From contig MU624543.1 in NCBI GenBank assembly GCA_025349905.2, positions 1 through 34,185 on the forward strand: a DNA stretch of 34,185 nucleotides, given 5' to 3'. Made by a program: the position numbers and the translations under genes. Positions 18,969-22,642 of the stretch are shown here, one piece after another; position 1 is the first letter of the stretch, and each line of letters starts with the position of its first letter. The stretch comes from Blastocladiella britannica (lineage: Eukaryota; Blastocladiomycota; Blastocladiomycetes; Blastocladiales; Blastocladiaceae). A model generated the notes under the pieces. The model had not been told where the DNA came from. It ran no database searches and saw nothing but the letters and a program-made list of their open reading frames with translations.

Positions 18969-19237
18969 TCAGGGAGGGCAGACCACACAGCCCATGGAGC
19001 ACGCGCGCGCGCAGCCGTCCCTGGGGTGCTGGTTGCATTTGTTGATGCAGTTGTTGTAGCAGCTTTCAACCCGGTGGCAGGGTCTCACTGTAGCGTTTTA
19101 AGTCAGGATTTGTTTTAACAGCAATCCGAGGAGAGCGCCATCCCACTATTCACATGGACATTGCCAGCGGTGCTGGCAGCAGGAGCAGCGGCCGCAACAG
19201 CGACGAAAGCAAAGAAGGCGAGGATCGAGGCGCGCAT
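18969..19237 (-). CDS. Small secreted cysteine-rich protein 1 (novel family)
   Basis: Two exons, 19147-19237 and 18969-19087, with a 59-nt intron (donor GTGGGA, branch-like CTGAC, acceptor CTACAG), give 69 residues. The first 18-20 residues (MRASILAFFAFVAVAAAAPA) are a clear signal peptide. The mature tail has eight cysteines spaced C-x5-C-x3-C-x3-C-x7-C-x3-C-x3-C-x2-C and ends at VVCPP. The neighbouring gene at 19690-19973 encodes the same layout. CxxxC pairs on two predicted helices recall alpha-hairpinin-like helix-loop-helix folds, but I recognise no family. Function is unknown; a secreted stable miniprotein (effector, antimicrobial, signalling or wall component) is inference. A TATA box lies 71 bp upstream. 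Confidence 0.75.
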
Positions 19238-19689
19238 TGTGTATGCTTGTATTTCCTTGGCTGGGTATTGAAAAAAAAAAAAAAGGACTGAGGAACACTT
19301 CGCACCATTTTATAGTATTTGGCCTGCCTGTAAACGCACGTACTTGCCTGCCTGCCAGGCAGTGAGGGCCAATTTCGTTAAAACTGCATGCATATTCAAA
19401 AAATCACGCGGGTGCCAGGCAGATATGAATCGGTTAACTGAGACATGGAACAGAATGTACGCTCACGACCATCATACGATGCCAAACTGCTCAAGGATCC
19501 GGTACCGAACCTTGATCAACCCTGCGCAACTTCTGAATCGGCGAAACCGTCCCATTTTTTCGTAGTGTTACCTACAGCAACCAATATTTACCTTGGCGAC
19601 CTGGTGGCTTTGCCTCGCATTGATTTGATTTACATTGGGTAAAAAGAAGGATGATCCAAGAAATAATACATTGATTTACATGTTCAAAT
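19238..19689 (-). promoter_or_regulatory. Upstream region of Cys-rich gene 1
   Basis: It contains an A14 tract (19271-19284, in the probable leader), a TATA box (19308-19314) and, further upstream, GC-rich words. GCCTGCCTG occurs at 19322-19330 and 19346-19354, and TGCCAGGCAG at 19353-19362 and 19413-19422. The latter two share the CAGGCA core of the former on the opposite strand. No coding potential was seen here apart from short random ORFs. The right end should hold the 3' UTR of Cys-rich gene 2. Confidence 0.45.
19308..19314 (-). promoter_or_regulatory. TATA box of Cys-rich gene 1
   Basis: TATAAAA on the minus strand, ending 71 bp before the ATG at 19237. The paralogous gene has a TATA-type element at a similar distance. 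TATA boxes are otherwise scarce near the start codons in this window. Confidence 0.6.
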
Positions 19690-19973
19690 TCACGGGCAAT
19701 GGTAGCAGCCGTCAGCGCAGATATCGAAGCAGTCGTTGCTCGGATGCTGCTGGCAGCGGCGGGCACAGCGCTCAGCGCAGCCGGAAACAGCGTGGCAGAT
19801 CGGGCCTATCACAATATTTGCATACCGAGACGTTTGGTCAACAATGAATAAATGCCGGGTGTCTTGATCAACATACCGCCAGCAACAATGGCCTTGTCTT
19901 GGAGAGCGGGGAGAGCCGGAGCAGCAGTCGTGACGGCGACAAGGGCAAAGAGTGCGAGGATCGAGGCGCGCAT
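19690..19973 (-). CDS. Small secreted cysteine-rich protein 2 (paralogue of protein 1)
   Basis: Two exons, 19877-19973 and 19690-19805, with a 71-nt intron (GTATGT donor, GATAG acceptor), give 70 residues. The start MRASILALFALVAVTTAAPA is nearly identical to that of the neighbour and is a signal peptide. After a short linker come eight cysteines in the same C-x5-C-x3-C-x3-C-x7-C-x3-C-x3-C-x2-C spacing, with a shared CxQHPxxxC loop. The gene lies in tandem with the first copy in the same orientation, with one intron in the same phase and place. A local duplication is therefore clear. The loop between signal peptide and first Cys differs completely, while the signal peptide and Cys frame are conserved. 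Function is unknown. Confidence 0.78.
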
Positions 19974-20035
19974 TGTATTGTATTGTGTAGGTGTGCTGCT
20001 TTGGATACAAAAGTTTTGAAGGAGATCGGTCTGCT

Positions 20036-20042
20036 CTTTATA
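20036..20042 (-). promoter_or_regulatory. TATA box of Cys-rich gene 2
   Basis: TATAAAG on the minus strand, ending 63 bp before the ATG at 19973. Its placement matches the TATA box of the paralogue. The leader between them contains ACACAATACAATACA just before the ATG, resembling the ACACA just before the ATG of gene 1. Confidence 0.55.
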
Positions 20043-20230
20043 CCGCGCTCTCACATTCCCAAATCCGAGAGTACACCCTTGGGACGAATGATCGCTCGTG
20101 TATTGTATTGTAAATTTAGTACTTGACATGCGGCTGATCACAAAATGTCGCTCGTGTTGATCAGAAACAGGCGCGGTACGACACCAAATACCGTCACCCA
20201 GTCGCATACAATATTCATAGTTGATAAAAA

Positions 20231-22642
20231 TCACCCGTGCATTGACCAAGATCGCTGGAAGGCCGTCCCCAACCGTACGCCGAGCTGGGAAATCAGTTCC
20301 GCGTCGCGCTCCCACTGCGGGCCGGAAAGGGCATTGACCAACAGCTGGAGGCCGCTGTGGTTCTGATTCTCCACCGCGTCCGCGACCATCGCCTCCCATT
20401 CCGCGAGATCCACATCAGACAGGTTGCGAGCGCCATCGGCAAGGGCGTCGACACGAAGCTGCCAGAGCCACAGAGGAGATCGGCGCGACATGGTCGCACA
20501 CAGCACCACCGTGCCCGGAATATGCTGCGCGAGCACCGCCACGATCCACGCGGGCACTAAAGTTCGTTTTTGATACGCGACACACGCCACCGCCCCGGCA
20601 ACGGTCGGCGCCCCGGCAAGCGGGTGCGTAGCGGTATACTCGCGCCCGCCCTTGCTAAAGGGTTGCAGCCGAGTGGCTGAGCCGCGGGCAACGACGCGGG
20701 CAATGGTTTGCTGGAGCACCTCGTTGTCGGATTCCAGCGTGAGCAGAGGATCGTACATCTCGGACGGCGGCGGTGGCAGGATCGAATAAAGCGCGTGCTG
20801 AATATCAGTGCGTGTCGCTGGTCCATCGCCGTTAGTTCGAGCCGTAGCCGTTTCATTGCGCTGGGACAGGGCCAAAAACAGCTCGATCCGATCCGAGAGC
20901 ATGTAGTCCGTGTCCAAAATCTCGAGAACCCGCGCCCACGAGTCGTCGGGCCTTGCTTGAATCGCGGAAATGAGGCGCAAGACGTCCTGCGTATCCGCAC
21001 TGAGGCCGGTGCCAGTTGAAATCGCCTGCAGCAGCGGCTCCAGTAACTCAACGAGGTCGAGTCGGGCAAGGTAATCTTCGTTGCTCAATACGATCGGGAG
21101 GAGCTCGCTTGAATTGACGTGATCCGCCACCACCATGGTATACGCCGCATTGTCGTCGCCGTGGATCCGCGCCAAGAGCCGCAGTGCAAGGTTAACGACG
21201 CCTTCTGTAGGGGAGTCGAGTCCTGATAAAAAAATTAACAAATCATTCATTGTCAGTGTCAAAACTCGGAATGCAAAAAAAAAAAAAAAAAAAAAAAAAA
21301 TAAACGAACCAGTGGCAACAACCGCAAGCGCGCCTCCATCCAGGTGCTGATTTGCAATCTCCATCAAGGTATTCTGATGCATCTTAACCTCCCCCACTTC
21401 CCAGTCATCAATCATCACGTAGTGGAGCATGTGCCTTGGTTCCACCAGCCGCTTTTCGATCATCACTGGCAGCAGATCGTGGTGGCCCTTAACCACCCAG
21501 TCCGTCACGTCGAAACCACTCGAGTTGTACCCGCGGGCGGCAAACCCCTCTGCGTCCAATCGATCCAATTCGGGCAAGTCCTCATGAATAAAGAACCAGC
21601 GGAACGTGTCGTATTCCCATGCGGTGCGCGTCAAGGACGTGGTGGTTTCGAAATACTGGCGTGGAAGCAGGTATCCGTGTGCCTTGAGCCAAGTCCAGGT
21701 CGGTTGCACCGCTCCTTCAAAGGAGCGCGTGGCGAGTGAAGGCAACACGATCGACGTGATATGCCTGGTTTTGATCCACGACACCCATTCCGGCACATCC
21801 AGCAAGAGCCGCGCGCTGACCAAGTAGTCCAACGCTTGCACGTGCCCCTCGATCGCAGCCGTGAGAGCCCAGTACATGGGAAGCGTGATCGGTTTGACCG
21901 CGTCGTCGAGGCCGTCCTGGTCGCCGTGGTGCTGCGAAACGACCCTGCGGATCAATTCCCGGTCGTCGAGTCCAAACCGCATCCACGTCCGCAGCGGTGC
22001 GCGCGAGGTGGCTAGAGTAGGGATTAAGGGCCCAAGGCCCGCAAGAGCTGACTCGAAGTGCGACAGCTCGCCCGTGATGAGAAAAAACGCGGGCAACTGC
22101 AGCGCCTCGGGGATGCAGCGCAGGCGCGGTAAAGATTCGAACTGTTGGTCGTCCTCTGGGACCAGAGCGTCCCAATCGGCCACGAGCTCGGCGAGCGGTC
22201 GGTTGTGGTCCATGTATCGCTGCCACCGGCGCGGCGATAAGAGGTGGTCGAGCGGGATGGTTTGCTGAAAGACGTGGTGGCGGCCTTTAATATCATCGTT
22301 TCCCTCATCGTCGTCTTCGTCAGCCTCTTCGTCGTAAAATTCAAACGATCCCGCCACCTGCGCGCGCCGGTGGTTCTTGATGATATTTTTGAAGTACCAC
22401 GTGACGGGCGTTGCGAGGCCGCGCGTGTCCGAGTACATCTTGTCCATGTCCGACGGGGAGTCGCAGTCAAAGTACTCTTGCATGACCCAATCGTCAACAG
22501 TCAAGCACGTGTGGGACCAGGCAAGGATGACGGCGCGGGACTGGGCGTGGGACAGCAGTGAGCTCGCGGAAACGATATGGGCGCCAGGGTTGGCGTGCTC
22601 AAGGACGCTGACGAGCAGGTCATGGGGCAAGTGCTCCAGCAT
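20231..22642 (-). CDS. Unrecognised 774-residue protein with F-box-like N-terminus
   Basis: Two exons, 21310-22642 and 20231-21222, flank an 87-nt intron with a GTTCGT donor and ATCAG acceptor; the phase-1 junction reads VVATG-LDSPTEG. The N-terminus (MLEHLPHDLLVSVLEHANPG) resembles an F-box helix. An acidic stretch (DEEADEDDDEGNDD) follows near residue 105. The centre has ankyrin-like helix pairs (LPMYWALTAAIEGHVQALDYLV, DWVVKGHHDLLPVMIEKRLVEP), and the C-terminal half is alpha-helical. I know no family match; it may belong to the ankyrin-like F-box expansions of zoosporic fungi, which is inference. The intron length is a multiple of three with no stop, so both spliced (774) and retained (803 residues) forms are translatable. 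The stop lies 257 bp upstream of Cys-rich gene 2. Confidence 0.6.
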   Translation of the reverse strand: MLEHLPHDLLVSVLEHANPGAHIVSASSLLSHAQSRAVILAWSHTCLTVDDWVMQEYFDCDSPSDMDKMYSDTRGLATPVTWYFKNIIKNHRRAQVAGSFEFYDEEADEDDDEGNDDIKGRHHVFQQTIPLDHLLSPRRWQRYMDHNRPLAELVADWDALVPEDDQQFESLPRLRCIPEALQLPAFFLITGELSHFESALAGLGPLIPTLATSRAPLRTWMRFGLDDRELIRRVVSQHHGDQDGLDDAVKPITLPMYWALTAAIEGHVQALDYLVSARLLLDVPEWVSWIKTRHITSIVLPSLATRSFEGAVQPTWTWLKAHGYLLPRQYFETTTSLTRTAWEYDTFRWFFIHEDLPELDRLDAEGFAARGYNSSGFDVTDWVVKGHHDLLPVMIEKRLVEPRHMLHYVMIDDWEVGEVKMHQNTLMEIANQHLDGGALAVVATGSFIFFFFFFFFAFRVLTLTMNDLLIFLSGLDSPTEGVVNLALRLLARIHGDDNAAYTMVVADHVNSSELLPIVLSNEDYLARLDLVELLEPLLQAISTGTGLSADTQDVLRLISAIQARPDDSWARVLEILDTDYMLSDRIELFLALSQRNETATARTNGDGPATRTDIQHALYSILPPPPSEMYDPLLTLESDNEVLQQTIARVVARGSATRLQPFSKGGREYTATHPLAGAPTVAGAVACVAYQKRTLVPAWIVAVLAQHIPGTVVLCATMSRRSPLWLWQLRVDALADGARNLSDVDLAEWEAMVADAVENQNHSGLQLLVNALSGPQWERDAELISQLGVRLGTAFQRSWSMHG
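21275..21300 (+). repeat. A26 homopolymer (T26 in the transcript) in an intron
   Basis: Run of 26 A on the plus strand, inside the 87-nt intron of the minus-strand gene 20231-22642, 9 bp after its donor. If the intron were retained, it would encode a run of phenylalanines. Confidence 0.95.

Follow-up and report, generated by a model that had tools for sequence, protein, structure and literature searches.

A family of secreted eight-cysteine miniproteins with a predicted helical-hairpin fold in the fungus Blastocladiella britannica

We analysed a stretch of 34,185 nucleotides from the fungus Blastocladiella britannica (Blastocladiomycota; assembly GCA_025349905.2, contig MU624543.1, positions 1 to 34,185), which is called the window here. 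Two adjoining genes in the window, A and B, encode small precursors with a signal peptide and eight cysteines. Judged from their sequences, A and B almost certainly belong to a multigene family whose products in this fungus are secreted miniproteins. The explanation that we consider best as a whole is a secreted family with a hairpin fold, whose peptides bind a target on microbes or competitors. We give this reading a probability of roughly 0.45.

Both genes were located on the minus strand. Gene A extended from 19237 to 18969 with a predicted spliced product of 69 residues, and gene B from 19973 to 19690 with a predicted product of 70 residues, so that the outer coordinates 18969..19973 given by a first-pass annotation of this DNA were exact. 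In each gene, a short phase-1 intron separated the exon for the signal peptide from an eight-cysteine exon, in which the last cysteine lay 1 or 2 residues from the end. The signal peptides, described in that annotation as near-identical, agreed at 15 of 19 positions. The frame C-x5-C-x3-C-x3-C-x7-C-x3-C-x3-C-x2-C was common to both copies. The window contained it two times, whereas it was absent from all 300 first-order Markov (Markov-1) resamples of the window, which ruled out a chance match. The shared intron phase was also confirmed. The donor GTGGGA of gene A is weak, and it was preferred because the resulting length and phase match the other 16 family introns. An alternative 32-nt intron in gene A was set aside, because of its length and because it would add an extra cysteine. 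As had been proposed, each copy had its own TATA box 63-71 bp upstream. The form of gene B, TATAAAGAG, was present in 8 of the 16 family promoters read. TATAAA at -92 to -66 was found in 10 of these 16, compared with a mean of 0.08 and a maximum of 2 in 500 Markov resamples. A 196-residue open reading frame on the minus strand (window 19809-20399) spans the promoter and exon 1 of gene B and could mislead automatic annotation.

The whole assembly (624 contigs, 15,261,140 bases; the window belongs to contig C4) was searched with signal-peptide DNA and single protein domains; family counts from these searches are lower bounds. Seventeen genes with a complete readable architecture were identified (Table 1). 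Their introns were all GT-AG, phase 1 and 55-73 nt long. Copies stood in groups of two or three on contigs C1, C4, C118, C188 and C276. A 20-base signal-peptide pattern matched 10 places with at most two mismatches. Nine of them were family members, including an uncertain second copy on C188, and the tenth (C178) was in another coding frame. The nine places at three mismatches yielded no complete member; three had no ATG start and six were translated. On these matches, with up to three mismatches, borrowing of the signal peptide by other gene families was rejected. At one site, C295:8587-8606 (L021), an open reading frame begins MRTSIFALF like the family signal peptide and then diverges. It is possibly a relic or chance, and a six-cysteine domain was not found in this 3-kb locus. 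C180, a weak match (expectation value E 0.03), was rejected as a member because such a cysteine domain was absent there.

Three further copies were left out of the seventeen. In the second C188 copy, exon 1 was out of frame with the cysteine exon under the usual family splice sites, and this copy is either decayed or spliced otherwise. C284:21460-21549 (L030) is a relic without a readable signal peptide and with the cysteine exon out of frame, which suggested gene loss in the family. C536:1-54 (L047), which lies at a contig edge, matches the C379 copy over its final 18 residues and has a differing downstream sequence; it represents a partial duplicate or an assembly edge.

The predicted splices were compared with GenBank models. 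Nine GenBank proteins were returned, and six of them equalled the predicted products exactly. For five of these six, the splice had been predicted before the GenBank model was seen. BC828DRAFT_404898 of B. britannica was identical over 70 residues to the spliced C188 copy. P0004 was the C319 product with seven extra N-terminal residues. BC828DRAFT_189603 (P0005) shared exon 1 with C42:38801-39073 (L013), and a different splice removed the cysteine domain. P0009 had no counterpart among the 17 assembly genes and was not located by the genome searches; it is an eighteenth complete member, known from GenBank alone. The protein database searches did not return annotated proteins for nine of the 17 genes, A and B included.

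Table 1. Features of genes A and B in the window and composition of the two subfamilies
Feature	Position or contigs	Strand	Remarks
TATA box of gene A	19309..19314	-	TATAAA, end 71 bp upstream of ATG
Gene A exon 1, signal peptide and pro-region	19147..19237	-	sequence
Gene A intron, 59 nt, phase 1	19088..19146	-	donor GTGGGA (inferred), acceptor CAG
Gene A exon 2, eight-cysteine domain and stop codon	18969..19087	-	sequence
TATA box of gene B	20037..20042	-	TATAAA, end 63 bp upstream of ATG
Gene B exon 1, signal peptide and pro-region	19877..19973	-	sequence
Gene B intron, 71 nt, phase 1	19806..19876	-	GTATGT...TAG
Gene B exon 2, eight-cysteine domain and stop codon	19690..19805	-	sequence; AlphaFold model
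Subfamily I (nine genes)	C4 A, C4 B, C4:41487, C622, C188, C118 (two), C379, C42		
Subfamily II (eight genes)	C242, C96, C319, C1 (two), C276 (three)		

All 18 members carried eight cysteines with a constant inner part, CX3CX3C-X5/7-CX3CX3C. The code had been called identical in the two copies. This was true of A and B, but the exact spacing 5-3-3-7-3-3-2 was present in only five of the 18 members, and the rest differed at the first, middle or last spacing. In four further members the first spacing alone was different (4 or 6). Subfamily II, with nine members, had 5-3-3-5-3-3-1, apart from a middle spacing of 7 in one of them. The last spacing, 2 in subfamily I and 1 in subfamily II, thus told the subfamilies apart, as did the central loop (7 or 5) in all members but one.

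Mean proportions of nonsynonymous and synonymous differences (pN/pS) in subfamily I were 0.09/0.47 for the signal peptide and 0.45/0.55 for the mature domain (pN 0.61 without cysteines). The contrast was weaker in subfamily II, with 0.28/0.60 and 0.37/0.43 (pN 0.51 without cysteines). These values showed little constraint outside the cysteines in the mature domain. Since synonymous sites were near saturation, they demonstrate little constraint on surface residues and not positive selection. Taken as a whole, the interpretation in the first-pass annotation was partly supported.

The pro-regions of A and B looked unrelated when the two were compared directly, but those of the paralogues C622 and C188a looked intermediate in the alignment by eye. 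The view that A and B arose by local tandem duplication became uncertain. The two genes adjoin each other, yet the domain of A was as close to C622 (44% identity) as to B (43%). Trees of the whole precursor and of the mature domain both joined A to C622 before B, with support of 92/88 and 86/63, which is not firm. Both trees were poorly resolved; in each, good support was obtained for one of the 15 inner branches. Two tandem copies at C118:23628-24454 (L009, L010) carried a lysine-arginine (KR) dibasic site directly before the cysteine domain, with the intron inside the arginine codon. This site, likely a Kex2 site by its sequence, was absent in the other 16 members.

Searches were made for known families. 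In Pfam, six of eight sequences gave no row at E up to 10, and the others gave Bee_toxin (E 0.18) and TIL (E 0.38), below the cut-off. None of five sequences passed the NCBIfam cut-off; bacterial radical-SAM Cys-X3 peptides gave weak rows (E 0.12-0.89), which are probably explained by the CX3C spacing alone. In the PDB profile searches, EcAMP1 and vicilin peptides gave weak rows (E 0.16-8.3). Protein searches by shared 5-residue words, two of which scored only the best 7,990 and 7,993 candidates, returned only B. britannica, and relatives in Allomyces, Catenaria or B. emersonii could be missed.

AlphaFold predicted a helical hairpin in both subfamilies, as the first-pass annotation had suggested from the cysteine pattern. 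For gene B (19803-19693 translated), the mean predicted local distance difference test score was 88.6 and the predicted template modelling score was 0.50, with helices at residues 9-19 and 25-31. The subfamily II model had helices at 36-47 and 51-58. Structure comparison covered 9 and 8 Foldseek-ranked chains, and families outside those chains could be missed. These models suggested that the mature domain very probably folds as a helical hairpin.

The domain, about 35 residues, would fold as two short antiparallel helices. Three rungs may join Cys2-4 on helix 1 to Cys5-7, which lie within helix 2 or directly behind it, and a Cys1-Cys8 pair could close the ends as a fourth. The pro-region would be removed, in two copies by Kex2-type cleavage at KR just before the domain. 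A folded, stable peptide would be released, and other microbes or competitors would carry the target to which it binds. Surface residues would diversify through birth and death of copies on a scaffold that stays fixed.

A role as secreted defence or competition peptides was tentatively favoured, at somewhat less than even odds, by analogy. The reasons are the signal peptide, the many cysteines, a frame that stays fixed while the rest varies, and what similar scaffolds are known to do. Similar plant scaffolds are antifungal, antibacterial, trypsin-inhibiting or ribosome-inactivating according to the available text of PMC7191063. Similar animal scaffolds are described as ion-channel, crustacean-toxic or insecticidal peptides in the available part of PMC11722136. 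The net charge of 17 mature domains was between -1 and +2, which made simple membrane lysis less likely and favoured a specific target.

The same features were weighed for other roles. The peptides might be cell-to-cell signals of the fungus itself that act in mating, aggregation or sporulation and have diversified to become specific. Such signals would agree with the small size of the secreted precursors, their pro-region, the KR site in two copies, the near-neutral charge and the restriction to one lineage within the protein searches made. Eighteen very different paralogues, however, are many for a signal-receptor set, and we regard this role as unlikely. A structural, surface-active or metal-binding protein of the wall, spore or zoosporangium surface appeared slightly less probable still. 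Fungal hydrophobins have eight cysteines including two Cys-Cys doublets. No such doublet was present in any of 17 precursors, which differ from hydrophobins in this, and this counted against a surface role. The little-constrained non-cysteine residues would be odd for a structural or metal site, and oxidation of the cysteines is expected in the secretory pathway. On the other side were the eight cysteines in a near-neutral secreted protein and histidine in 8 of 17 mature domains. Other fungal small cysteine-rich proteins are surface-active, as far as the consulted portion of PMC8596622 describes them.

Protease inhibition was the least probable of these roles. The inter-helix loop would then be the reactive site, which is also its function in the plant hairpinins VhTI and BWI-2. 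The scaffold with its central loop is the same, and trypsin-inhibiting alpha-hairpinins carry a reactive arginine between two CXXXC motifs (PMC7191063, available text). In the family, however, the loop had no conserved arginine or lysine, as in NQHPRDG, QQHPSND, RAHPYDG and KKHPSPG. Defence or competition was kept as the preferred role. If the peptides act on other microbes, they would represent a stable, diversified scaffold in a lineage from which such peptides are not known. The peptides that zoosporic fungi secrete seem to have received little study.

The family was compared with known hairpin peptides. A curated Pfam family exists for Ole e 6, but the eight family sequences scanned matched no Pfam family above the cut-off. 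Ole e 6 from olive pollen (PDB 1SS3) has six cysteines and two antiparallel helices with a short loop, according to the available part of PMC8198727. It was the top PDB profile row of our alignment A5, which was not significant (E 0.16), and it is without the flanking cysteine pair of the family. The closest agreement was with the plant 6C alpha-hairpinins, whose motif is given as C-X3-C-X3-C-X4-20-C-X3-C-X3-C in the accessible text of PMC11591084. The inner six cysteines fitted this motif in all 18 members, and a helix-loop-helix is likewise predicted in both subfamilies. The same text defines alpha-hairpinins by four to six cysteines, whereas the family has eight, with one added on either side of the motif. 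Two eight-cysteine plant candidates are still kept there; both of their extra cysteines are N-terminal, unlike those of the family. The hairpinins are from plants and the family is fungal, and sequence similarity was not significant.

The CS-alpha-alpha peptides (scorpion kappa-KTx, cone-snail vil14a, Cerebratulus B-IV and acrorhagin I) are also disulfide-stabilised helical hairpins, and their common motif is explained by convergent evolution in the available part of PMC11722136. The scorpion peptides have two to three disulfides there, and Cerebratulus B-IV and acrorhagin I have four. The family, with eight cysteines and up to four disulfides, differs from the scorpion peptides in this number. 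In the PDB profile search with alignment A7, kappa-KTx 1.2 ranked first, again without significance (E 0.09). These are animal venom or stinging peptides, whereas the family is fungal.

An eight-cysteine version with one extra cysteine per side in a blastocladiomycete family was not described in the open-access literature surveyed, mostly titles and the beginnings of abstracts. The family was not described in the available parts of PMC3969231, PMC8198727, PMC7191063, PMC11722136 and PMC11591084 either, and the open-access papers naming B. britannica were about other things. The scaffold is already known, and the code, whose inner six cysteines fit the plant motif, is less unfamiliar than was first thought. 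It is conceivable, with less confidence than for the defence role, that a flagellated early-diverging fungus independently built an arsenal, comparable to venom or immune peptides, on the helical-hairpin scaffold, with a fourth disulfide to close the ends and at least 18 paralogues diversified on one frame. Such an arsenal would parallel, in a fungus, the hairpinins of plants and the hairpin toxins of animals and, if the peptides act on other microbes, would be another convergence on the disulfide-locked helical hairpin.
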